A stretch of DNA of 20,733 bases from positions 1 through 20,733 of IMG/VR virus record IMGVR_UViG_3300031245_000137; one strand, given 5' to 3'. The number at the start of each line of letters is the position of its first letter. Position 1 is the stretch's first letter. Of this stretch, positions 125 through 20,429 are shown piece by piece. The translations under genes and the position numbers were made by a program. This DNA is from a virus. The notes under the pieces are model-generated. The model ran no database searches. It saw nothing but the letters and a program-made list of their open reading frames with translations, and was not told where the DNA came from.

Positions 125-2482
125 TTAGCCCTCCTTACAGTCCCCCCACGAATTTCCTATTGCTATGTCAATTTCAAAATCTAAAAACCTTTCCTCAGGC
201 AATTCAATACCTTCCACCTCCTCCTTTATTATACGACAAATGTCATCCACCTCTTCACCAGGACAATCTACAATAACAGAATCATGAACAAAATTAACTA
301 CCTTACCTCTATAACCTTCCCTCCATAACCTTTCCACTATCCTCCATGCTGTCAATGCAGCTATATCACTAGCTGCACTTTGCACAGGCGTATTCACTGC
401 CTTCTGCTTCCAACCTTCCGCATCTCCAACAGAATCTATCCACCTAAACCTACCAAACATCGACCTTACATAACCTACCCTACTGACAAATTCTCTGACA
501 TTGTCAAGCCAAACCCTTAACCCAGCAAACATCTGGAAATACCTTTCAAGCATTTTCTTGGCTTCCTCTACAGTCACCGACAAATCTCTTGATATACTCA
601 TATGGCTCATCCCATAAATCACACCAAAATTAAATGACTTCGCCCTCCTCCTATACTCCCTCCTTACCTCCTCAGAAGCATCAACAGGCATTCCATATAC
701 CTCAATCGCTACCTTCGTATGAATATCTACCCCAGATTCGAAAAACTCCTTCATCTTCCTGTCCTTCGAATACTGACATGCCACCCTCAACTCATGCTGA
801 CTAAAATCTGCCTTCACTATCCTCCCATCCTCTCCAAACCTACTCACAAACGCCTTCTCTAACACCGGCCCTAACCTCGTCGGAACATTCATCAGATTCG
901 GCTCCGACGATGCAAGCCTCCCCGTGTCCGTCGCCACCAATGAAAACTTTGAATGTATACAACCATCACTCCTCACCCACTCCTCCAGAAACGGCTCCAC
1001 ATACGTCCCCAACATCTTCTCCACTACCCTATACTCCAGCAAACTCTCTATCCTTCTTCTCGCTTCCTCCGATAACCTACTCCCCTCTGACTTTAATACC
1101 TCTTCCAATACCTCCTTCCTCGTAGAACTTACCTCTACCCCAACTTCCCTCAACCACTCCATCACTTGCTTAGGCGAATTCAAATTTACTCTACCAACTT
1201 CCCTCAACCACTCTCCCTTCCTATCCTCTAACTCTCTCTTCAACTTCACTAAATAATCAATATCTACATACATCCCATTCAACTGCAACTCAATACATAA
1301 ACCTAAAACCTTCTTCACCACCTTCTCATAAGCATCATAAAGACTCTGCGGCTCCCCTCCAAATACCTTACTCCAACCTAAAGGCGCCTTCGCTAACCTC
1401 TCCCTAAACATCTCATATAACCTCAAAGTCGCATACGCATCCATCGCATTATATTCGTATAACCTGTCCCGTGGCACATCCTTCATACTTACCTTCTTCC
1501 AGTCAATTCCATACTGCCCTAAATCTAAATAATCCAACACCAACCTCTTCAATGATACACTTGGCACACTCTTCCCACTCAATACATAATACATCACCTG
1601 AACATCCTCTATACTCTCTACCCTATCATACAACTCCCAACCATAATCCCTTACCCCTACCGCTACATCAAACCCTGCATTATATACCACCACCTTCTTT
1701 ACCCTGTTAAATAACTCACCCATAAACTCCCTTGCCCTCTCCTCACCCAACCTCTCCAAATCCACAACATAACAACCACCACCATCAACAGCCAACCCGA
1801 CAGTTGACACTCTAAAGTCTCCACTCCATATATCACTACCAACTGTCTCAAAATCCAAACTAACCACCTTCCCTGCCACAACAGATAATACATCATCCAA
1901 TTCACTACCTTCCACTACTCTGAAATCCACTTTCCTATACATCCTACCACTTTCAATATAAACATAACCTCTTGCTAAATCCTTTACAAATTGCTCATAC
2001 GGACTCAGCCCAAGAACACCATCCCTATGAAACATCAACCTATAAGCAGGATGCCAGGTCACAAGCACTTTCCCATGCTTAGTCTCTACTATATTACCTC
2101 GAACGTCCCCTACTGCACCAGGCACATTAAAAAACTCCTTCGCCGTAGAACCTAACGCAATAATTAACTTCTTCTTCCTTAACCTCATTAACTCTTGCTC
2201 CAACTTCACTTTACAACACTTCACTACCTCCTTTGACAACTGATTGTTTGTCGGTCTGCACTTCACTACATTCGTAACATACACCCCTGATCCATTTAAA
2301 CCTAACCCCTCCAATACAGCTCTTAACACTTTCCCCGAATAACCTACAAACGGTCGCCCCTGCCTCTCCTCTTCCTCACCAGGAGCTTCCCCCACCACAA
2401 CTACCTCAGCATCCAAATTCCCCTCAGGCTCCACCCTCCTCTTGCCTCTCAAAGGACAAGACAAACACATAATGTCCGACAT
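125..2482 (-). CDS. polA: Family A DNA polymerase with N-terminal uracil-DNA glycosylase domain
   Basis: This 785-residue replicative polymerase has three parts. Residues 1-175 form a family-4-like uracil-DNA glycosylase: C6 and C9 (CLSC), GEAPG at 31-35, C75, C89/C90 and HPAYRL at 144-149, so all Fe-S cluster cysteines and the HPxxxL motif are kept. Residues 200-360 form a 3'-5' exonuclease with DFET at 210-213, YNAGFD at 267-272 and YNAMD at 344-348. Residues 390-785 are the Pol I polymerase domain with motif A DFSQHELR (559-566), motif B RRRAKSFNFGVIYG (611-624) and motif C HDS (733-735). F619 sits where E. coli Pol I has F762. There is no 5'-3' exonuclease domain. The ATG at 2482 is preceded by GAGGTGG. 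UDG-polymerase fusions are, to my recollection, known from SPO1-like phages. All active sites look intact. Confidence 0.97.
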   Translation of the reverse strand: MSDIMCLSCPLRGKRRVEPEGNLDAEVVVVGEAPGEEEERQGRPFVGYSGKVLRAVLEGLGLNGSGVYVTNVVKCRPTNNQLSKEVVKCCKVKLEQELMRLRKKKLIIALGSTAKEFFNVPGAVGDVRGNIVETKHGKVLVTWHPAYRLMFHRDGVLGLSPYEQFVKDLARGYVYIESGRMYRKVDFRVVEGSELDDVLSVVAGKVVSLDFETVGSDIWSGDFRVSTVGLAVDGGGCYVVDLERLGEERAREFMGELFNRVKKVVVYNAGFDVAVGVRDYGWELYDRVESIEDVQVMYYVLSGKSVPSVSLKRLVLDYLDLGQYGIDWKKVSMKDVPRDRLYEYNAMDAYATLRLYEMFRERLAKAPLGWSKVFGGEPQSLYDAYEKVVKKVLGLCIELQLNGMYVDIDYLVKLKRELEDRKGEWLREVGRVNLNSPKQVMEWLREVGVEVSSTRKEVLEEVLKSEGSRLSEEARRRIESLLEYRVVEKMLGTYVEPFLEEWVRSDGCIHSKFSLVATDTGRLASSEPNLMNVPTRLGPVLEKAFVSRFGEDGRIVKADFSQHELRVACQYSKDRKMKEFFESGVDIHTKVAIEVYGMPVDASEEVRREYRRRAKSFNFGVIYGMSHMSISRDLSVTVEEAKKMLERYFQMFAGLRVWLDNVREFVSRVGYVRSMFGRFRWIDSVGDAEGWKQKAVNTPVQSAASDIAALTAWRIVERLWREGYRGKVVNFVHDSVIVDCPGEEVDDICRIIKEEVEGIELPEERFLDFEIDIAIGNSWGDCKEG

Positions 2483-4980: not shown

Positions 4981-5616
4981 CTACTTTCCATTACATACTA
5001 ATCCAGCAAACTGGCACTTGCTACATTCATTCGGATTCATCCTTAAACTCTTAACATCTTTCGCACCGAATACCTCAACAGCTTTCTTTACCGCTTCCTC
5101 AAAAACCGCTAAATCTGGATCTCTTACTACTTCCACCGTCTTACCAGTCTCCTTATACACTCCCAAAATACCTACCTTCCTCACACTCCCAACGAGATCC
5201 TTTATATCATCCCGAACACATGCCAACTTCAACCCAAAAAAGTATACATTAACTTGCACTAACCAACTCTTAGAAATGCATCCCTCTAACAATTCAGCAA
5301 ATCTATTCAAATTACATGTCTTCACATCCACTAAAATCTCCCTGTCAAAAATTGCGTCAAACCTCCCCACTACAACACCATTACCCAACCTCAGAACAAA
5401 ATCAGGATCATCCTCGTGAGACTTAGCATTATAATAAACCTCCCTCCCTTTACGAATCTCCCACTCTATTGCCACAGGCTCCAATGCTATCCCAATGTCA
5501 AATATCCTTCTAGTCCATTCATCAAACCCCTTCCCCTCATACCCATGCGCTATATACCATAACCTCCTCAAACAATTCACACCTAATACACTTGCTGAAA
5601 GACTTAACTCCTTCAT
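4981..5616 (-). CDS. Cas4-like PD-(D/E)XK nuclease with Fe-S cluster
   Basis: This 211-residue protein has the layout of Cas4 and the nuclease domain of AddB. C15 sits in CLRRLWY, E46 lies in the first core helix, D87 is in GRFD, D97 and K99 form the DVK motif, Q121-Y125 gives the QxxxY motif, and a C-terminal C198xxC201x6C208 completes a four-cysteine 4Fe-4S site with C15. Such enzymes cut or resect DNA ends. No CRISPR array or other cas gene is present, and it sits between helicase and primase, so a role in replication, recombination or end processing is more likely than spacer acquisition. Start is the ATG at 5616; the nearest good ribosome site (GGGAGG) is a rather long 12 bases away. All predicted catalytic residues are present. 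Confidence 0.85.
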   Translation of the reverse strand: MKELSLSASVLGVNCLRRLWYIAHGYEGKGFDEWTRRIFDIGIALEPVAIEWEIRKGREVYYNAKSHEDDPDFVLRLGNGVVVGRFDAIFDREILVDVKTCNLNRFAELLEGCISKSWLVQVNVYFFGLKLACVRDDIKDLVGSVRKVGILGVYKETGKTVEVVRDPDLAVFEEAVKKAVEVFGAKDVKSLRMNPNECSKCQFAGLVCNGK

Positions 5617-5669
5617 ACAGAAATAAAACCTCCCTATACCAACATTTCAAACAAAAATATAAAACTACC

Positions 5670-6893
5670 TCATACCAATTCCTCCCTAAAATACCCACAC
5701 TCCCTTACCACTTTCAACGATATCACATCCCCTCTCTTACCAAACTTATTCTTCAATACCACCAACCTTATCAATCCCTGCTGCTCCTCCTCCTTCGTCT
5801 GAGACAAAGCTATCACATAATCTGCTACCTGCACTTTCCGAAAACTCCTACCTACATTCCCTAACGATAACACCTTCCTGTCCACTGCCTCCCTATTCGC
5901 CTGAGATGCCGTCACTACCCATTTGTCATACTTGTCAGCTAACCTCATCATCCTCTCAAATACTTCACCCTGCTCTACCCAGTCTGCTTCCTTGCTTCCC
6001 TTCCCCGTACTCAACAGATCACCATAGTCCGCTACCAATACATCTACACTGTCCACTAACCCTTCCACTAACCCCTCTAACTCGTCTATCGTCATCCGAG
6101 ATGCATACGCTACCTCCACCTTCCCCATACACTTCAATAGCTCAATCCTATTCCTTAACCTCACAGGATCATTCCTCACATTCGAAAACAACAATCTGTC
6201 AAACCTCTCCAATACCACATCCCTACTATCTTCCAATGATATAAACAAAACATTCTTTCCCTGCAATGCAAACATCACTGACTCAAATACTAACATCATC
6301 GTCTTCCCCACACTTGTCGCACCTATCCATACCGTCATTGACCCTTGCCTAAAACCACCACCGAGCACAGCATCTAACTGCGTAAACCCAGACAACAACC
6401 TTCTCTCTAACTTCCCTTCCAATACATAACTTACCATCCTGTCCAGTACACCATCTAATACCTCTTCCCTTAAACCTCTCTTCACTATTGACTTGACAAC
6501 TACAGTCCTATACACATTACCTAACTCCTTTACTATACTGTCTATATCCACCCCCTTCAATAACTTCTCCTCTACCTTCTTCACCCCATCCACTACTACC
6601 TTCTCTTTCCATAACCTATCCACCGTGTCCAATACCAACTCCGAAGACAAATCCACATCACTCTCCCTATACCATAACACCCTATACAACACATCATCAC
6701 TTACACCTTCCCTCAATGCAAAAACATACAAATCATCCCAATTCCTTACCAACCTGCCTCTCTCTAATGCCTTCTTCAACAAACTCCATACCTTCCTGTC
6801 CACATCCTCACTAAAAAACGATAACTCTACATCATCCACTACAGCCTTCCCTACTAAACCATCCACTACAGCCTTAATCAAAAACCACTCCAT
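5670..6893 (-). CDS. dnaB: DnaB-like replicative DNA helicase
   Basis: This 407-residue RecA-fold helicase unwinds the fork as a hexamer. Residues 1-130 are a mostly helical N-terminal domain. The motor domain begins with the DnaB signature SGFTQLD (168-174), then Walker A GATSVGKT (191-198), the catalytic Glu in SLED (219-222), Walker B VLVADYGD (285-292), SQANR (330-334) and a basic KNKFGKRG stretch (381-388). It is a little shorter than cellular DnaB (about 470 residues), with the shortening in the N-terminal domain. The ATG at 6893 directly abuts the stop of the loader gene (TAG at 6894-6896), so translation of loader and helicase is probably coupled. The three neighbouring genes (loader, helicase, primase) supply a primosome. 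Confidence 0.92.
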   Translation of the reverse strand: MEWFLIKAVVDGLVGKAVVDDVELSFFSEDVDRKVWSLLKKALERGRLVRNWDDLYVFALREGVSDDVLYRVLWYRESDVDLSSELVLDTVDRLWKEKVVVDGVKKVEEKLLKGVDIDSIVKELGNVYRTVVVKSIVKRGLREEVLDGVLDRMVSYVLEGKLERRLLSGFTQLDAVLGGGFRQGSMTVWIGATSVGKTMMLVFESVMFALQGKNVLFISLEDSRDVVLERFDRLLFSNVRNDPVRLRNRIELLKCMGKVEVAYASRMTIDELEGLVEGLVDSVDVLVADYGDLLSTGKGSKEADWVEQGEVFERMMRLADKYDKWVVTASQANREAVDRKVLSLGNVGRSFRKVQVADYVIALSQTKEEEQQGLIRLVVLKNKFGKRGDVISLKVVRECGYFREELV

Positions 6894-12215: not shown

Positions 12216-13256
12216 CTAACTTATCGTCGCTACGACATACTCAATCCCCTCCACACTCCTACAATAAATTACATCGTCAGATAACCCCAGCTCAATCACT
12301 CCATCTATCACACCGTCAAGATCCCTTGCCAAGACACCAACTACATAACCACCTTCCATATTTACCTTCTGCAATTTCCTCGTCCACTCAAATCCTCTTA
12401 ACGACGATACTCTCAAACCTAACCAACCCTCATCCACTTCCAAATACACTACATCTGACGGATCCAATACCTTTACTATCCTACTTATTTCATCTGTCAC
12501 CACCAAATCCACAGCAACCTTCTTTACCTTGTCCCTATAACCTACCAATACATCCCCTAACTCAGGATAACTCATATCATAACCTAATACCCCAACATAA
12601 AACTCCCCGTCAAACTCCACATACAACCTGCCACCTATAATCCATGCACCTACTATCCTCTCCCCCTCTGCTACCTCCACAAGCTGCTTTACTCCGGAAA
12701 CTGATAACATCACCTTTTCTTCCCCTACAATAAAGGGAACAAAATAACACGCAATCCTTACTCTGTCAGTCGCAAAAATACCTCCCTTGTCAAAACATAT
12801 CACTCTATACTCAACAGAAGAACTGCCCGACGATGCAATCTCCCCTTCCTTTTTCAATACCTTCAACACCTCATCCTTCCAGTCAATTACTACCTCCCTA
12901 CCCCCTCTACCCTTCACCAAAGGAATAATCCTATTCACCGTTCCATCAACATGTATCTTACTTATCTTTACCTCAACATCATTACCTCTTATAACAAAAT
13001 ACCCCTCTTCCATACCAACACCATAAACTACTCCTGGATCCAATACCTTCACAACATCATAAAACTTCGAAGCTGGAACTACTCCCTCAAAACTTCCCCC
13101 ATACCATAACTCAAACTCAAAAAAGCCATTACTACCATACACATAACCATCCTTAAAAAAGTGCAACACTCCAAATAATCCTGTCTTTTCCAATTTTTCG
13201 TCTGCTACTAACCTCGCTAACTTAACAAGCTTTGGCATTACTATATCCCACTTCAT
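12216..13256 (-). CDS. DnaN-like sliding clamp (divergent)
   Basis: This 346-residue protein has the length and pattern of the bacterial beta clamp, which holds the polymerase on DNA. It is a string of beta-rich segments over three repeats; FATDRVRIA near residues 176-184 matches the ATDxxR turn shared by beta clamps, and the C-terminal EYVVATIS resembles the usual DnaN ending. Sequence identity to well-known clamps looks low, so the call also rests on the neighbouring clamp loader. The ATG at 13256 is preceded by GAGGAGG at good spacing, 26 bases after the stop of the DpdA-like gene. A clamp partner for a family A polymerase is less usual than for Pol III. A T4 gp45-type clamp would be shorter (about 230 residues). 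Confidence 0.75.
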   Translation of the reverse strand: MKWDIVMPKLVKLARLVADEKLEKTGLFGVLHFFKDGYVYGSNGFFEFELWYGGSFEGVVPASKFYDVVKVLDPGVVYGVGMEEGYFVIRGNDVEVKISKIHVDGTVNRIIPLVKGRGGREVVIDWKDEVLKVLKKEGEIASSGSSSVEYRVICFDKGGIFATDRVRIACYFVPFIVGEEKVMLSVSGVKQLVEVAEGERIVGAWIIGGRLYVEFDGEFYVGVLGYDMSYPELGDVLVGYRDKVKKVAVDLVVTDEISRIVKVLDPSDVVYLEVDEGWLGLRVSSLRGFEWTRKLQKVNMEGGYVVGVLARDLDGVIDGVIELGLSDDVIYCRSVEGIEYVVATIS

Positions 13257-13282
13257 AACCCCTTCCTCCTCTACCCATCTTT

Positions 13283-14263
13283 TTACACCAAATAATTTCT
13301 ACTCTTCAACCTATACACCTCCCAATCTCTAAACTGGCTCCACCACTTCTCCATTTCCCTATAATACCAAATACTCCACTTGCCCCTCTCTATACTGTCT
13401 TGCAACCTCTCCTCTACATCCTTTACATCCATCTCTTCACTAAATACTTCCTTAGCCACCTCCTTCACTACATCCTCCCCTACCATCTTTACATAATCCA
13501 AAAAATACCAACCCTTATCATCCGAAGTTCTCCTCCTTGTCACCTTCACTACAAATAATGACTCAAACGTAAACTCCCCTCCCTTACCTAATAACGGAAC
13601 AGGAACAAAACCATAAGCACAATACTTTTTCCAACCAGTCGAATCTGCCGAATACAACGGATACCTCCTAAACACTTCCGGTGTCACTGCCCCAAAAATG
13701 TGCACTTTCGGATGCGGCTCCCCACCTTCCACTTTTACAAAATTCCTAAACACTCCGTCCATCCACTGCGATATCACTTTCCTACCTCCTACTAAACCTC
13801 CCGTCCCCAAATACTCTACCCCTTCCTCTAAATACCTTTCCACAAACCTATAATCTGCCCCATAATGCACTACAGGCATCGGATTTAACCCCTCACCCCT
13901 CATCTCCTTCCATATCTCCCAAGTCCTCTCCGGATCAAAAATTACATCCAATACCACATACACATTAACGTTATCCCCAAACTCCTTCAACCACTCCACA
14001 TACTCCCTCTTATATGCCTCAAACCCCTTACTCTTACTCCAATCCGTCCCTATCACCTCCTTCACATCCGTACTAGTTCCTACATTCTTATTCCACCAAC
14101 TAAATGCACCACTATCCAACATAACCCATAAACCTCTACCCTTCAATCCCAATAACTTCCCCAAACCCCTCCTGTCATAAAAAGAACCAAGCACTGATGA
14201 CTCTACCCTTACCATTTGCTCCAATTCACCAGGCGAATTTGTCAATCCTAACAATATCCTCAT
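13283..14263 (-). CDS. dpdA: DpdA-like DNA transglycosylase (TGT fold)
   Basis: This 326-residue protein resembles DpdA, the tRNA-guanine-transglycosylase relative that swaps guanine in DNA for preQ0. Motifs follow the TGT barrel: LDSGAFS (49-55, Asp50 at the place of the TGT general acid), LDV with D106, GTGGLVGG (153-160), VHIFG (187-191) and YSADSTG (204-210), with D207 at the likely nucleophile position. The zinc-binding Cys/His set of tRNA enzymes is missing, as in phage DpdA proteins. The ATG at 14263 lies inside the end of gat-queC (38-base overlap) with GGAGG nine bases upstream, so the two proteins are translationally linked. A tRNA-modifying TGT is the alternative, but the missing zinc site and the gene company favour DNA. 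Confidence 0.8.
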   Translation of the reverse strand: MRILLGLTNSPGELEQMVRVESSVLGSFYDRRGLGKLLGLKGRGLWVMLDSGAFSWWNKNVGTSTDVKEVIGTDWSKSKGFEAYKREYVEWLKEFGDNVNVYVVLDVIFDPERTWEIWKEMRGEGLNPMPVVHYGADYRFVERYLEEGVEYLGTGGLVGGRKVISQWMDGVFRNFVKVEGGEPHPKVHIFGAVTPEVFRRYPLYSADSTGWKKYCAYGFVPVPLLGKGGEFTFESLFVVKVTRRRTSDDKGWYFLDYVKMVGEDVVKEVAKEVFSEEMDVKDVEERLQDSIERGKWSIWYYREMEKWWSQFRDWEVYRLKSRNYLV

Positions 14264-15845
14264 ACAATAACTCCTCCAACTTCTTCCTGTCCTCTTCCTT
14301 CACAAACCTTACCTTCCTTACAATACTATCAACATCAATCACTTGCCTCCCCATTGCCCTGTCTTCCTCTAACTCATACTCCACTCCCTTCCGATAAAAT
14401 AACCTCGGATCCGGGACACCTGCAATCCTTGCCGCCCACCGACTTAACATAGTCGATCCACATTCCTCACATAACACTATCCTACCATCCTCAACCTTAG
14501 GCTCGTCACATGAACAAGTCCACTCAAACGGAAACCCTAACCTATAACCTAACCACCATTCCTCCACTTTGGTCAAATTTTCAAACAAATTCACATACTC
14601 TACCCTGTCCCATATCAATAAACCATACCTTAACACTTCCCTCATCGACTTCACAAACTTTTCACTATTGTCTGGATACACCCCTGCCTCAGTCATATTG
14701 CTCCACCCCGCTACTATATACACTTTGCTATAACCCTTCCATAACTCTTGCTCCGCTAACGATGCCAACACAGCCCAAAACACTAAATTCCTACCCGATA
14801 CCCAAGCCGTCGTCGTCTTCAACATACCACACTTGCCCGTGCTCACTCCTATACCCACATCCACCAGCTCCGACCTATCCCCACCCAATACATGCCTCAA
14901 ATCAATTACCCTATACCCCATACCACCTAACTCTGCCTGCTTCTGCACTGCAAGCCTCTCCGCTTCCTCTCCCTTCTGTCCATAATCAAAATGCACTAAC
15001 TCCACATCATACCCCAACTTCCTTAACAACCACCCAGACAATCCACTATCTATACCACCAGACGCCGACACTAACACCTTCTCCTTACCTAACTTCCCCA
15101 CCTCCTCTACACACGGATGCACTACCTTCCCAACAAATTCATGCCTCCTCTGCACTCCACTGTCCAAATCCAACTCCCACCATTCCCATCCACCTACCTC
15201 ATCCACATAATAATCCTCCCATACACATACACCCGTCCTACTAAACCCCGTCAGCCTACTTACTACATCCCATACACTTTCCATTTCACTGTGCAATACA
15301 AATCCATACCCCTTCACATACGCTCTCGCTAACGGTCTAAAATTCACCCCATAATATACCCTGCCCAACTTCGTATCTACCAACACAAATGCAAACCCAC
15401 CCTCCACTCTCTCCATTAACTCTTCCATCCCATACTTAACATACCCATTCAATAACGCCTCACTGTCTACCCTGTACAACCTACCAACATCCTCTACCTC
15501 CTTTACAAACCTTTCCGACACTGATCCATTGTGCACCAGCACTAACCCTCCCTTACACAAGGGCTGAAGCACATCCTCATCAGAACTAAACTCTGTCTCC
15601 GGCCTCGCTCTACAAAAACCTAATAACAATGACCCCGCCTTCCACCTCTCCTCCACCCATAACAATACCTCCGCCCTCACCTTAGAATAACACTCTGCCC
15701 ATTTCCTTACCTCTACCTGCCTACCGTCCACTACTGCTACCCCTGTCCCGTCCACCCCCCTCCTTTCCGCACCCAACATTAACTTGTCAATTACATCCAA
15801 CGGAAACCTGCCTTCCCTATTCCATACCATTACTATTCCACACAT
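14226..15845 (-). CDS. gat-queC: GAT-QueC: class II glutamine amidotransferase fused to QueC-like domain
   Basis: This 539-residue fusion has an N-terminal class II (Ntn) glutamine amidotransferase: Cys2 becomes the nucleophile after Met removal, followed by RPETEFSS (81-88) and HNGS (105-108). From about residue 250 a QueC-type ATP pyrophosphatase follows: SGGIDS (262-267), GRN (351-353), YPDNSEKF (390-397) and zinc cysteines C444, C446, C459, C462. In crenarchaea this fusion turns preQ0 in tRNA into archaeosine; in Escherichia phage 9g it accompanies dG+ in DNA. Ammonia from glutamine is added to the nitrile. The start is fixed by the need for MCGI; AAGGTGG precedes it, 6 bases after the radical SAM stop. 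All expected active-site residues are present. Asparagine synthetase shares the architecture but lacks the YPD and zinc motifs. Confidence 0.93.
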   Translation of the reverse strand: MCGIVMVWNREGRFPLDVIDKLMLGAERRGVDGTGVAVVDGRQVEVRKWAECYSKVRAEVLLWVEERWKAGSLLLGFCRARPETEFSSDEDVLQPLCKGGLVLVHNGSVSERFVKEVEDVGRLYRVDSEALLNGYVKYGMEELMERVEGGFAFVLVDTKLGRVYYGVNFRPLARAYVKGYGFVLHSEMESVWDVVSRLTGFSRTGVCVWEDYYVDEVGGWEWWELDLDSGVQRRHEFVGKVVHPCVEEVGKLGKEKVLVSASGGIDSGLSGWLLRKLGYDVELVHFDYGQKGEEAERLAVQKQAELGGMGYRVIDLRHVLGGDRSELVDVGIGVSTGKCGMLKTTTAWVSGRNLVFWAVLASLAEQELWKGYSKVYIVAGWSNMTEAGVYPDNSEKFVKSMREVLRYGLLIWDRVEYVNLFENLTKVEEWWLGYRLGFPFEWTCSCDEPKVEDGRIVLCEECGSTMLSRWAARIAGVPDPRLFYRKGVEYELEEDRAMGRQVIDVDSIVRKVRFVKEEDRKKLEELLYEDIVRIDKFAW

Positions 15846-15851
15846 ACCACC

Positions 15852-16919
15852 TTACCCCCTACCATATTTCTCCTTCCAATAACTACTGCGAAAATCGCAT
15901 GCTTCAACCCCAACATTAGCTAACATATGAGGCCATACCCAATAACATCCTCTACACTTCATTACCTCCCTCCTCCATGCCTCCCATACCTCCTCTCCCC
16001 TATCCATAAAATCCCATACACTATAACCTACCTCCCCTACCCTATATCCACATACCCTTAACCTACCATCACATTCCACTGATAAATTCTCCACACCAAA
16101 TCCATACTCCTTCCACCACTTCACATCCTGACTCAATGCCTTGTCTATATTACTCAAATACCCCTTCACTGGCTGAACAAACGGAAACCTTCCCCACTCT
16201 TCCTCCAACCTCAATAACGACTCCTCCCATACCCCCCTGTCTCCCTCAGTTAACCACCACCCCTCACCTTCCACCTTACCTACCATAAAATCCTTGTCCC
16301 CATGATCCCATTCTACATAATTATAACTCACCTTCCACCTACTATCCTTCACTACATTTTCATCAAACCATACCACCATATCATATAACATCTCCACATT
16401 AGCTCTGCTCACCGTTATCAACGATAACACTTCCTCTACTCCATGCTCATACATCCACACCAACCCCTCTAATGCCTCTTCCGCCTTCCTCACTATCTCT
16501 CTCCCTTGACCCTCAATTAGCTTGACAGCAGTCTGAGACAACCTACCCTCTGCTTTCATCCTTTCATAAACTTCTGGAATAAAGTCAACACCGGCACTCC
16601 AATTCCTTAACCCTACATCCACTAACTTCTCCCTCCACTCCAAAAACAACATCTCCGGACTAGTAGAATACATCCCATACTCTATACCTCTTCCTAATAA
16701 CCCACCCACTACCACAACCAACTCCTTACCTAACATCAAAGGCTCATTCCCCAAAAACAGAAAAAACTCAATCCCTTGCTCCCTTAATATGTCAATCACT
16801 TCCAACCACTCCTCCCCAGACAACCTCCGCATACCAAACCTCTTGCTTCCACAATACGGACACTTCCTTGGACATTCCCTATTCAAAAATACTGACGCTA
16901 CAACTGCTTTATCACCCAT
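15852..16919 (-). CDS. Radical SAM protein with C-terminal auxiliary-cluster cysteines
   Basis: This 355-residue enzyme has the radical SAM motif CPRKCPYC (C16, C20, C23; CX3CX2C) that holds the 4Fe-4S cluster, and GNEP (57-60) in the place of GGEP, which contacts SAM. The C-terminal third has C283, C290, C322, C325 and C341, a SPASM/twitch-like set that would hold an extra cluster. It cleaves SAM to a 5'-deoxyadenosyl radical to activate an inert carbon. It sits between gat-queC and the SDR gene. A QueE role (CPH4 to CDG) is possible, but QueE is shorter (about 200-240 residues) and has no such C-terminal cysteines, so another step on the modified base is equally likely. The ATG at 16919 has GGAGG 8 bases upstream. 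Confidence 0.87.
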   Translation of the reverse strand: MGDKAVVASVFLNRECPRKCPYCGSKRFGMRRLSGEEWLEVIDILREQGIEFFLFLGNEPLMLGKELVVVVGGLLGRGIEYGMYSTSPEMLFLEWREKLVDVGLRNWSAGVDFIPEVYERMKAEGRLSQTAVKLIEGQGREIVRKAEEALEGLVWMYEHGVEEVLSLITVSRANVEMLYDMVVWFDENVVKDSRWKVSYNYVEWDHGDKDFMVGKVEGEGWWLTEGDRGVWEESLLRLEEEWGRFPFVQPVKGYLSNIDKALSQDVKWWKEYGFGVENLSVECDGRLRVCGYRVGEVGYSVWDFMDRGEEVWEAWRREVMKCRGCYWVWPHMLANVGVEACDFRSSYWKEKYGRG

Positions 16920-17000
16920 ATCCTTTACCTCCTCTCCTGCAAATGAAAATTACCTTCCCTAATTGAACACCCTACTGGGCACTCATTTCACCACTAATTC

Positions 17001-17645
17001 CTATACTAAATCCTCACCACCTGATAATACCACTTCCCCATACAAATACCTACACTCCAATAACATCCATAACATCCATTCGGCTGCTTCCTGTGGCGAT
17101 GCTATTCTCTTGGCTGGCAACCACTTCTCCACTTCCTTGACAAATTCCTCATCTGAACCTCCACCTAACTTCGTACCCTTGACATAACCAAAATGTATAC
17201 ATACTACCCTATACTTCCCTACATACTCCCTCGCATAACTTAAAGCTAACATCCTTACCGCTGCCTTCGTTGCTCTATACAACTGGATACCTGCCTGGGG
17301 CATCACCCCAGCAACAGATCCTATCACTCCAACTACCCCTCCCTCTTCCATTAACTCACCTGCCAAAGCCAACCCATAATATACTCCCAATACATTTGTC
17401 TCCAATACCTCCCTCTCATACCTACCAGGCGCCTCTTCCCAATCAGCTACCCCTGCATTCAAAATCATCAAGTCAAACTTGCCTCCCACCTGCACCACCC
17501 ATTTCCAATCTTCTAACTTCCTTACATCCAATCCGCTACTCCTACTAAAATTAAAAACTTCCCACCCCCTACTTTCCAATGCCTCTTTCAATGCTTTACC
17601 AATGCCTGAACTTGCTCCCGTTACCAATGCTCTCTTCACTACCAT
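17001..17645 (-). CDS. Short-chain dehydrogenase/reductase (SDR)
   Basis: This 214-residue NAD(P)-dependent oxidoreductase has the classical SDR set: TGASSGIG (9-16) for cofactor binding, NAG (63-65), N84, S110, and Y123xxxK127 as catalytic residues. R35 after the second strand hints at NADPH. The usual PG motif after the sixth strand is replaced by FG (152-153). At 214 residues it is slightly short for the family (about 250), mainly after the active site. It lies between queC and the radical SAM gene; the ATG at 17645 is 4 bases after the queC stop, with GGGAGG upstream inside queC. Substrate is unknown. Pterin reductases such as sepiapterin reductase and FolM are SDRs and would fit a FolE/QueD pathway, but that is a guess. 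Confidence 0.9.
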   Translation of the reverse strand: MVVKRALVTGASSGIGKALKEALESRGWEVFNFSRSSGLDVRKLEDWKWVVQVGGKFDLMILNAGVADWEEAPGRYEREVLETNVLGVYYGLALAGELMEEGGVVGVIGSVAGVMPQAGIQLYRATKAAVRMLALSYAREYVGKYRVVCIHFGYVKGTKLGGGSDEEFVKEVEKWLPAKRIASPQEAAEWMLWMLLECRYLYGEVVLSGGEDLV

Positions 17646-17649
17646 CTCC

Positions 17650-18330
17650 CTATACCTCCCATCCTAACATTTCAAAAAACTTCCTCATCTCTTCCCCTCT
17701 CCTACCTCCATACTTACCTTCCTTCCACTTCCTATAATACTCCCTTACCACCTTACTGTCCTCCACCTTCACTTCCATTTCCTCGTCCACTCCATTCAAC
17801 CTTAACGCCATTATCCGCCTGAAACAAGCTCCACATTCCCCACAAGGCTTCTCTCCTCCACCATAGCAACTCCTCGTCTTTAATAACTCATCCACAGATA
17901 AACCCTGCCTCAAATACCATTCCACCATATCCACCTTCGTCATATGCCTGAACGGCGTATCCACCACTACCTCCCTACCCAATAAAAAACTACATACCTC
18001 CGTCGCTACCTCAAAAAACCTTTCCGACCTGTCCGGTATCTCCATCTCCCCTTCCTGCACTACCAGCCATACCTTAGTCGACCCATACATCCCCGCTACC
18101 AACACAAAAAATAAATTCCTCGCCGGTATATTTGCGTCTGCCTCCTCCCAATTCCTCCCCAAATTCATCAATGTATCGTCAATCACTGTCTCAGGAATCG
18201 TCCTCTTCACTGCTTCCAATTCCATAGCCTCATACCTATGCCCTAACCTACAATACAATGTCTTCGGCTTCCCTAAATACCACCACGCCACATAACTGTC
18301 CAATCCTCCACTATACAATAATACCTCCAT
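17650..18330 (-). CDS. queC: 7-cyano-7-deazaguanine (preQ0) synthase QueC
   Basis: This 226-residue enzyme converts 7-carboxy-7-deazaguanine (CDG) to preQ0 with ATP and ammonia. It has YSGGLDS (6-12, ATP pyrophosphatase loop), IPARN (68-72) and a zinc site of C155, C163, C166 and C169 (C...CGECGAC), all typical of stand-alone QueC, and the usual family length. It is the second QueC-type domain in the operon; the other is the C-terminal half of GAT-QueC, which has different zinc spacing. The ATG at 18330 follows GGGGGAGG closely, 12 bases after the stop of the preceding gene. Supplying preQ0 to the DpdA-like enzyme is the natural role; feeding host queuosine is possible but less likely in this context. 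Confidence 0.95.
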   Translation of the reverse strand: MEVLLYSGGLDSYVAWWYLGKPKTLYCRLGHRYEAMELEAVKRTIPETVIDDTLMNLGRNWEEADANIPARNLFFVLVAGMYGSTKVWLVVQEGEMEIPDRSERFFEVATEVCSFLLGREVVVDTPFRHMTKVDMVEWYLRQGLSVDELLKTRSCYGGGEKPCGECGACFRRIMALRLNGVDEEMEVKVEDSKVVREYYRKWKEGKYGGRRGEEMRKFFEMLGWEV

Positions 18331-18342
18331 ACCCCTCCCCCA

Positions 18343-18831
18343 CTAATACTTCCCAACCAACCACCCAATCATACTTGCCTTCACCCTCTCTTCCACTTCC
18401 TTAGTACATCCACCAGCTAACCATTCCCTCACCCATCCCCTCAACACATTCAATAAATCCGCAGGGGGCTTGCCCTCAAATACCAAACTCAACCCCCTTA
18501 AATACCAAATAAACATAGCCTGCAACGGCATAAACCTATACTCCAATACCAACGGATACAATACCTCATAAAATGCCTTCCTACGAAACTTCCTCTCGTC
18601 TTCCCCATACATCTTCACTACCCTTAACCTGATACCAGAACCACCGCCAACCCCCTCCTCTACCCCTTCCTCTAACCTCTTCAAATGCTCCTCCACTTCC
18701 TTCCACTTGCTATAACTTGCCCTTACCTGTATCTCATTCAATACTGCCGCCATCTGCGGACTTAACTCCTGCCGCCACCACCAGTCCTCTACCTTCTTCT
18801 TCAATACAGACCCCTTCCTCTTCCCACCCAT
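18343..18831 (-). CDS. Unknown basic protein upstream of queC
   Basis: I do not recognise this 162-residue protein. The first 15 residues are strongly basic (MGGKRKGSVLKKK), then WWW at 18-20, a charged, helix-prone stretch (about 40-60, Lys/Glu-rich), a Gly-rich break (60-66) and a C-terminal helical part rich in Trp and Leu. No signal peptide or zinc pattern is seen. A nucleic-acid contact is plausible from the basic N terminus, nothing more. The ATG at 18831 has GAGGAG about 9 bases upstream, and the gene sits 14 bases after the DUF932-like gene and 12 bases before queC, so it belongs to the same transcript. Confidence 0.75.
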   Translation of the reverse strand: MGGKRKGSVLKKKVEDWWWRQELSPQMAAVLNEIQVRASYSKWKEVEEHLKRLEEGVEEGVGGGSGIRLRVVKMYGEDERKFRRKAFYEVLYPLVLEYRFMPLQAMFIWYLRGLSLVFEGKPPADLLNVLRGWVREWLAGGCTKEVEERVKASMIGWLVGKY

Positions 18832-18845
18832 ACCTGACTACTCCT

Positions 18846-19826
18846 CTACTGAACTACTCTTAACTCTGGTACTACCTCACCCCTTTCCTTGTTAAAAACC
18901 ATCCTTGACACTTCCATATCTAATACCCTCCTCTGTGAATAATCTACTACACCTCTCTCATACAACCTACTAACACACTCTGTCAACCAGTTCCATACAT
19001 TATATAAATTCTCCCCAGGATCCACTGCCAACTTCTTCCACATCTTCGGATGCGCATCCAATATACTTACAATCCTCTCTGGCTTCTCTGATACATCCAA
19101 CCCTTCCCCAAATAATAACTTATACCTGTTCCTCACTCTAAACATCCCAGCTAAAAACATACCACTCCATTCCCCTTCACGACCCAATTCCTCCTCCCAC
19201 TTCTTAACAAACCTATAACCCGCTATATAAACCATCGCTGAAACAGAAACACTCTTCAATGCTCCCAATACAACCTTCAATACCTCAACCTCCGTCCATA
19301 CCTTCGGCTCAAAAGATAAATACCTGCCTAAACTCCGTTCATTCAATGACTCCGACCACCTGACATTTGCATCATAAGGCACTACTGCCCCATTCTGGCA
19401 AATAAGCCTATACAATCCCTCCGTCCTAAACAATGACGGAACTGGATACTTAGGCACTACACCTATCTCAATCATCACTTCAAATACATCCGAAGGAAAT
19501 ACTTCACCTAACCCCTTCCTCCTCGATACTACAATACCACCTCTGCCAACCTCCGCACCTGCATCTACCAACCTATAGACACCGTTCCTTAACTCCTCTT
19601 GCCTCTTCGAATCACTTAACACCTCTTCCCCTACAATAGAAAATACCTCCCCGTCCACAAACATAACCGGAAACCTTTTCTCTGCAAAAGATTCCTCATA
19701 GAACTCCCTCACCAATTTGTCAATGCTAGTCCCCAACCTCGATGCTAACGACCTCTTCGCCCCATAACTTAACCTACCTAAGTCTAAATCCTTCCCTCCT
19801 ATAACCTCAAACCTTACATCCACCAT
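18846..19826 (-). CDS. DUF932-like phage/plasmid protein
   Basis: A 326-residue protein that I tentatively place in the DUF932 group of phage and plasmid proteins of unknown function. Supporting signs are a central LFRTEGLYRLICQNGAVV segment (about 135-152), like the R..C.NG signature of that family, and a C-terminal NVWNWLTECV...RRVLDMEVSRM segment like its conserved ending. The N-terminal 120 residues are less clear. No catalytic motif or membrane segment is visible. I start it at the ATG at 19826, with AAGGAGG 8 bases upstream; an in-frame GTG at 19835 overlaps that ribosome site. The family's function is not established, and nothing here links it to base modification except position. Confidence 0.55.
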   Translation of the reverse strand: MVDVRFEVIGGKDLDLGRLSYGAKRSLASRLGTSIDKLVREFYEESFAEKRFPVMFVDGEVFSIVGEEVLSDSKRQEELRNGVYRLVDAGAEVGRGGIVVSRRKGLGEVFPSDVFEVMIEIGVVPKYPVPSLFRTEGLYRLICQNGAVVPYDANVRWSESLNERSLGRYLSFEPKVWTEVEVLKVVLGALKSVSVSAMVYIAGYRFVKKWEEELGREGEWSGMFLAGMFRVRNRYKLLFGEGLDVSEKPERIVSILDAHPKMWKKLAVDPGENLYNVWNWLTECVSRLYERGVVDYSQRRVLDMEVSRMVFNKERGEVVPELRVVQ

Positions 19827-19869
19827 CTTCCCCACCTCCTTCCACTTTTTTAGTCCTTTCCTTTGATAT

Positions 19870-19875
19870 ATTATA
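19870..19875 (-). promoter_or_regulatory. Possible -10 element (TATAAT) between sigma-like and DUF932-like genes
   Basis: TATAAT lies on the minus strand in the 57-base gap after the sigma-like gene, about 43 bases before the next ATG. No good -35 box is found at 16-18 bases; TTGCAC occurs at 20 bases, inside the upstream gene. In an otherwise tightly packed operon the gap itself is mildly suggestive. Weak call. Confidence 0.25.
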
Positions 19876-19883
19876 CAACTACA

Positions 19884-20429
19884 TTACAACACCTCGTGCA
19901 ATAGCTCCCTTATCTCTTGACAACACCTCCTCTCAACCTCCGTTAACTCCCTGCCCAGCCACCACTCCATCCATTCCTCCCCCTTCTTCTTGCTCACCGC
20001 AACGCTCCTCAGTGCATTACTAACATCCATATCCCCTACCACTACCTTTAAAAAATCATCACCTACTAAACCCCAATACCTTTCCACTACCCTTAATAAC
20101 CTACTGCTAAAACTCTCCTCCCTACTATCCCCTAAATACCAATCCCTTAACCCTCCCTCACCATCGTCTCTCATATCCTCCAAAGATGCTATACTCCCCT
20201 CCCGCTTCTTCACAAATAACCTATTTTTCAAACTCGTATCCACCACTGACCATAAATAAGTCGTCCACTTCACTCCCTTCGACATAGAATATAAACGCCT
20301 CAATGCATCCCATCCATACATCAATACATCCTGCACCAAATCTTCGTCAGCATACATTCCCCTCTTCCTACATTCAGTATACACCATCCGAGTAACAACA
20401 TCTACAAACTCCTTTGCTTCCACAACCAT
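19884..20429 (-). CDS. Sigma-70 region-2-like transcription factor
   Basis: A 181-residue protein whose first 80 residues follow sigma-70 region 2: DEDLVQDVLMYGWDALRRL near 28-46, then KGVKWTTYLW at 51-60 where sigma factors have G..F.TYA, and a basic stretch after it. The C-terminal part ends with ELTEVERRCCQEIRELL (about 161-177), which could be a region 4-type recognition helix, but the preceding helix is not clear. If real, it would redirect the host RNA polymerase to phage promoters or bind DNA in another way. It is near the head of the visible transcript. The ATG at 20429 has GGGGGTG 4 bases upstream and lies 14 bases after the micro-protein stop. A small ECF-like or replication-linked sigma relative are alternatives. 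Confidence 0.6.
   Translation of the reverse strand: MVVEAKEFVDVVTRMVYTECRKRGMYADEDLVQDVLMYGWDALRRLYSMSKGVKWTTYLWSVVDTSLKNRLFVKKREGSIASLEDMRDDGEGGLRDWYLGDSREESFSSRLLRVVERYWGLVGDDFLKVVVGDMDVSNALRSVAVSKKKGEEWMEWWLGRELTEVERRCCQEIRELLHEVL

Follow-up and report, generated by a model that had tools for sequence, protein, structure and literature searches.

What do a radical SAM (rSAM) protein and an SDR reductase do inside a viral 7-deazaguanine operon? Deazaguanine bases in phage DNA protect against restriction, and an earlier note on this DNA had singled out the two genes as candidates for new base chemistry, proposing that a radical step plus an NAD(P)H reduction could either decorate the deazaguanine or replace a missing early step. 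We examined this proposal in the window, the whole 20,733-base stretch of the IMG/VR virus record IMGVR_UViG_3300031245_000137, which is a fragment, and in related loci from other viruses.

Layout of the cassette

The minus strand carries all substantial genes of the window. Their order of transcription is sigma-like ORF, 329-aa ORF, 162-aa ORF, queC, SDR, rSAM, gat-queC, dpdA, dnaN and recA, and the features of the cassette are as follows.

19884-20429, minus strand: sigma-like ORF, first in the order of the block
18846-19835, minus strand: 329-aa ORF, function unassigned, at the 5' end of the inserted block, no family match
18343-18831, minus strand: 162-aa ORF, function unassigned, at the 5' end of the inserted block, no family match
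17650-18330, minus strand: phage-type divergent QueC, 226 aa (PF06508, 4.5e-18; phrog_1550, 4.4e-26; motifs)
17001-17645, minus strand: classical SDR, 214 aa (PF00106, E 4.1e-22; TGxxxGIG, NAG and YxxxK)
15852-16919, minus strand: rSAM protein, twitch/SPASM-like, 355 aa (PF04055, E 2.8e-10)
14226-15845, minus strand: GAT-QueC, a class II glutamine amidotransferase (Cys2) plus a QueC domain with YPDN (PF06508, 3.2e-30; PF13522, 4e-9)
13283-14263, minus strand: DpdA, DNA guanine transglycosylase (phrog_887, 8.6e-29; queuine tRNA-ribosyltransferase family match)
13257-19883, minus strand: whole cassette block, 6.6 kb, absent in the relative G003

The positions and strand given earlier for the rSAM and SDR ORFs are correct, as are the outer junction gaps of 4 bases (QueC-SDR) and 6 bases (rSAM-GAT-QueC), which we re-measured; the inner SDR-rSAM gap of 81 bases had gone unmentioned. 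The dpdA and gat-queC genes overlap by 38 bases. With DpdA, QueC and GAT-QueC in one operon, the window carries a viral DpdA-type 7-deazaguanine DNA modification cassette. Its dpdA adjoins the sliding-clamp gene (13256-13283), as it does in phages 9g, CAjan, ART and RHph_X3_2 (L048, L049, L053, L054), an adjacency that hints at a coupling of base exchange to replication.

Four close relatives of the window virus were located through UDG-PolA, which in the window (125-2482) joins an N-terminal uracil-DNA glycosylase domain to a DNA polymerase A. A search of the nearest relatives did not find the cassette, and tblastn with the block proteins, including the 162-aa and 329-aa ORFs, gave no match in the four. 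G003 has its sigma-like gene (57% identical) directly before dnaN (54%) with nothing between them; the window virus thus carries a 6.6-kb block that G003 lacks.

FolE, QueD and QueE are absent from the 20.7-kb fragment and present in most of the relatives with an rSAM cassette. Precursor genes can sit elsewhere in the genomes of this virus group: in the close relative L004, folE (5263-5859) lies directly downstream of the UDG-PolA gene. The window's own folE may lie just outside the fragment, since the window stops 124 bases beyond the same polA. In the genome of L027, another virus with the rSAM, QueE and QueD are located about 12-20 kb from the cassette, so that little can be read into the lack of both genes in a fragment of 20.7 kb.

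The base composition of the window is strongly asymmetric. GC skew is about -0.68 on the plus strand throughout (1-20733) and AT skew is near zero; on the coding strand G:C is near 5:1, and C occupies only 2-6% of third codon positions. This extreme asymmetry is common to all four close relatives (L003, L004, L005 and L006), including one without a deazaguanine cassette at this site.

A radical SAM family beside QueC and DpdA

With the window rSAM as a single query sequence, neither phages nor viral contigs nor genomes gave a match, and plasmids gave one weak match to PqqE. The family emerged only when the cluster motif was used as the query, followed by an alignment (A6) of the members first obtained. 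The motif search gave L026 (38% identity, full length), L027 and L028/L029, and the alignment search gave 15 loci on viral contigs and a single MAG contig. QueC and DpdA were found beside the rSAM gene in 15/15 viral contigs and in the MAG contig, the typical gene order being QueD-QueE-FolE-rSAM-QueC-HAD-DpdA. A search from the QueC side, using an alignment (A9) of the adjacent QueC, added 80 loci; after merging and removal of QueC duplicates at 90%, 65 non-redundant loci remained, 55 with DpdA and 10 without. The rSAM gene was present in 38 of the 55 loci with DpdA versus 0 of the 10 without (Fisher p 5e-5), in a sample biased by its seeding with rSAM-linked QueCs, a bias of which the rSAM-side sample is free. 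In 32 of these 38 loci, the rSAM gene is on the same strand as QueC or QueC2 and within two ORFs of it. The clustering of the rSAM with deazaguanine genes is far beyond chance, and its membership in the deazaguanine pathway is strongly supported.

The earlier placing of the two genes in the deazaguanine operon is upheld by this recurrence beside QueC and DpdA. A pair widespread without deazaguanine genes had been named as the outcome that would refute it; all family members recovered adjoin QueC and DpdA. Four unrelated rSAMs without a cassette (L030, L031, L044 and L045) were dropped from the family. A host or MAG origin was rejected, as 505 genome stretches held one true member, on a 52-kb Sulfuricurvum MAG contig with the same cassette, and a defence role was rejected after PADLOC gave only QueC/QatC and weak viperin matches. 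Two further features were seen in these genomes. L042 (7809-8828), L089 (7606-8556) and L099 (1992-2954) carry, as well as the main-type rSAM, a paralogue from a second, separate clade directly beside GAT-QueC. A conserved charged protein of ~190 aa with an HTH-like C-terminal end is encoded between queE and folE in L028, L033, L035, L037-L039, L041, L043, L083 and L087.

Could the rSAM simply be a QueE, substituting for the usual enzyme or acting as a second source of 7-carboxy-7-deazaguanine (CDG)? The window lacks a QueE, nothing in it being found with a QueE profile (A8), and the rSAM core does align to QueE. However, the alignment is confined to 91 columns of that core and is far from full length, and the new family, which shares with QueE the core and the pathway neighborhood, is ~100 aa longer and has a cysteine-bearing, twitch-like C-terminal domain that QueE lacks. 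Moreover, among the 38 rSAM loci, many of them on stretches cut by contig ends, FolE is found in 34, a separate true QueE in 28, QueD in 22 and HAD in 32. Since true QueE coexists with the rSAM in these loci, and outside the cassette in L027, we regard a QueE role as very improbable. The earlier statement that the rSAM is unlike QueE is borne out, and the suggestion that the pair replaces a missing early step fails, true QueE, usually with QueD and FolE, co-occurring with the rSAM in most relatives.

Cysteines, fold and partner enzymes

The window rSAM scores 41 bits against PF04055 (cut-off 29.5), which places it in the radical SAM superfamily, and its cluster motif CX3CX2C corresponds to C16/C20/C23. 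The earlier note had pointed to five extra SPASM/twitch-like cysteines, C283, C290, C322, C325 and C341. All 41 family members share C16, C20, C23, K145, C290 and C322, and 40 of them also have C325, so that three of the five stand as conserved; C283 occurs in only 17 members, and position 341, mostly Leu, Val or Ile, is not conserved. The GX4C and CX2C cysteines assign the window protein to the twitch/SPASM subclass. The column of the usual fourth ligand holds Cys in 39 of 41 members and Lys270 in the window protein, which thus departs from the four-ligand pattern (a Cys 9-15 residues before GX4C); the L027 protein has lost the same cysteine. C283 may stand in for it in the window. Judged by its sequence, CX(n)GX4C - CX2C is the arrangement of twitch-type auxiliary clusters, one ligand of which has been shifted or lost in the window rSAM. 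No PF13186 (SPASM) match above the Pfam cut-off was found in the window protein, and 5 of 39 relatives gave weak ones. Neither PHROG nor NCBIfam has a model that fits the family; the generic phrog_1802 (radical SAM domain-containing protein) matches 23 of 39 members, the window protein not among them.

An AlphaFold2 model of the rSAM (39 sequences) reached a pLDDT of 88 and a pTM of 0.89. Among the first Foldseek hits, the best full-length match was BlsE (7vob; TM 0.61/0.66, 14% identity), a cytosylglucuronate decarboxylase that acts on a nucleoside-sugar substrate. Foldseek E-values favor SkfB and MoaA, and the list also includes AbmM, DesII and viperin. BlsE, AbmM, MoaA and viperin act on nucleosides or nucleotides, and with most of these fold matches using nucleotide, nucleoside or sugar substrates, the fold would fit a small substrate of the deazaguanine type. 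BlsE, MoaA, AbmM and DesII have the same overall fold as the rSAM and no known link to deazaguanine. Peptide-modifying SPASM enzymes (SkfB, SuiB and PqqE) are among the matches as well. The top BFVD match of the first model was A0A8S5QS09 from Myoviridae sp. ctgXL3, a protein of 571 aa annotated only as '7-cyano-7-deazaguanine synthase', whose length and name suggest an rSAM-QueC fusion.

That the best full-length match is a nucleoside-sugar decarboxylase, and that sequence matches of the rSAM reach AhbC/AhbD/NirJ, would also agree with a different route to a known base (e.g. dDG, dADG or dPreQ1), in which a radical decarboxylase or amide-level enzyme, for instance, acts on CDG. Known 7-deazaguanine derivatives number at least eight, with the predicted enzymes DpdL, DpdM and DpdN, which Cui et al. 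(2023) reportedly named. Nevertheless, profile searches recovered no member of the rSAM family from 26 GenBank phage records, including dADG, dPreQ0, dPreQ1 and dG+ phages, the weak matches being QueE or rSAMs far from QueC, and the known bases are made in those phages without this rSAM. We therefore consider this explanation quite unlikely. In 24 of the 26 records a DpdA or QueC-type protein was matched, and the other two were STSV2 and phi38:1; 9g, CAjan, nt-1, Dp-1, HVTV-1 and CP220 are included. Acinetobacter phage SH-Ab 15497 was considered as a deazaguanine phage, which its record contradicts.

The SDR of the window has the motifs TGASSGIG, NAG and YRATK of a classical SDR. It is the most diverged of a set found in seven loci (the window, L026, L083, L087, L093, L098 and L111), being 27-35% identical to the others, and TGxxxGxG and YxxxK are kept in all cassette SDRs. 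In 7/7 loci the SDR gene is immediately upstream of the rSAM gene, with a 4-base overlap in four, and 6/7 also contain GAT-QueC or a second QueC. A maximum-likelihood tree of 41 rSAMs groups all seven SDR-linked proteins in one nine-member clade (support 100/100), within which the window protein pairs with that of L026 (100/96); the remaining two members, L027 and L096, have no SDR in the sequence stretch covered. The pairing proposed earlier is thus recurrent, always with the SDR directly upstream, but confined to one rSAM clade instead of belonging to the rSAM generally. As 31 of 38 rSAM cassettes have no SDR in the stretch covered, reduction is not a step common to all of them.

The stand-alone QueC retains SGGxDS, IPxRN and the zinc cysteines CX7CXXCXXC. 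Unlike canonical QueC, and unlike the QueC of CAjan and of Cellulophaga phage phi3ST:2, it lacks YxQxHxxE and YPDC, having LGHRYE and IPDRSERF instead. E. coli QueC cannot form preQ0 without the tyrosines of the two motifs (PMC13329287), and the QueC-like ligases QatC and Cap9 have been proposed to use protein amines in place of ammonia (PMC13329287). This divergence, together with the HAD phosphatase-like gene in 32 of 38 rSAM loci, lends itself to another explanation, in which the rSAM (and SDR) makes or alters a partner molecule (an amine, an amino acid or a sugar, for example) for QueC or GAT-QueC to couple to the carboxylate of CDG, leaving the deazaguanine itself untouched. But the cassettes showed no conserved enzyme for amino acids, sugars or polyamines, and some cassettes have the divergent QueC and no rSAM, so that this QueC does not strictly depend on the rSAM. 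On balance, a role in supplying such a partner seems unlikely. In L072, L074, L075, L077, L078 and L079, divergent QueC and the HAD phosphatase-like domain are fused in single ORFs of 313-340 aa.

The window GAT-QueC is 27% identical to Gat-QueC of phage 9g and has YPDN, as in 9g. The 9g-type dG+ cassette (FolE, QueD, QueE, Gat-QueC and DpdA; PMC6884629) shares with the window this enzyme, DpdA and the dnaN-adjacent position, but lacks a second rSAM, an SDR and the additional divergent QueC. Because Gat-QueC and DpdA of 9g are enough for dG+ in E. coli, host QueC not being needed (PMC6884629), the window probably holds a 9g-like dG+ route in full, alongside a second module of divergent QueC, rSAM and SDR.

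Proposed chemistry of the second module

We favor, as the somewhat more probable reading, that the rSAM is a dedicated tailoring enzyme acting on the 7-substituent in a viral DpdA-type pathway, with the SDR reducing its product, to give a base unlike those reported. Membership of the operon, recurrence, the family's signature, its fold and its coexistence with QueE are shown by the observations above; from these we infer the substrate, reaction, order of steps, SDR role and product as follows. FolE, QueD and QueE would supply CDG, the 7-carboxyl of which would be activated and aminated by QueC and GAT-QueC. The rSAM, built like twitch enzymes for small nucleoside-like substrates, would use a 5'-deoxyadenosyl radical to alter the 7-substituent, most likely by an oxidation, a carbon-carbon bond change or a decarboxylation-type step. 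In the SDR-bearing clade, which includes the window, the SDR would reduce the resulting carbonyl or imine with NAD(P)H. DpdA would swap the base into DNA, the radical and reduction steps taking place before or after this insertion, and the product would be a 7-deazaguanine base differing from those reported.

The tailoring reading is supported by the complete co-occurrence on the rSAM side, by the distribution over loci with and without DpdA, by the SDR-rSAM adjacency within one clade and by the conserved auxiliary-cluster cysteines. The QueC-HAD fusions, the candidate rSAM-QueC fusion A0A8S5QS09, the fold matches to nucleoside and nucleotide enzymes and the SDR motifs point the same way. Counting against it are the peptide-SPASM fold matches, the absence of FolE, QueD and QueE from the window fragment, the cysteine lost in the window and L027, the cassettes without an SDR and the biased QueC-side sample. 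The usual gene order of the module is FolE-SDR-rSAM-GAT-QueC-HAD-QueC-DpdA. We give about an even chance to the proposal that uncultivated viruses use this SDR-rSAM-QueC/GAT-QueC-HAD module to make a hypermodified deazaguanine, with an unreported 7-substituent, that DpdA places in viral DNA.

An undescribed activity, as the earlier note had suspected, is borne out within the 26 phage records and the literature surveyed, a survey that stops short of the description of DpdL, DpdM and DpdN: it yielded no report of an rSAM other than QueE in DpdA cassettes, and no radical step other than QueE in deazaguanine pathways. If DpdL were this rSAM family, the novelty would fall. The pair recurs in unrelated uncultivated viruses, in every case beside deazaguanine genes and usually with QueE, and so probably builds a DNA base beyond those identified so far. 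The viruses bearing the module lie outside the cultured set, and its second radical enzyme and reductase, two QueC-type ligases and phosphatase-like partner point to a branch of base modification that studies of isolated phages would have missed.
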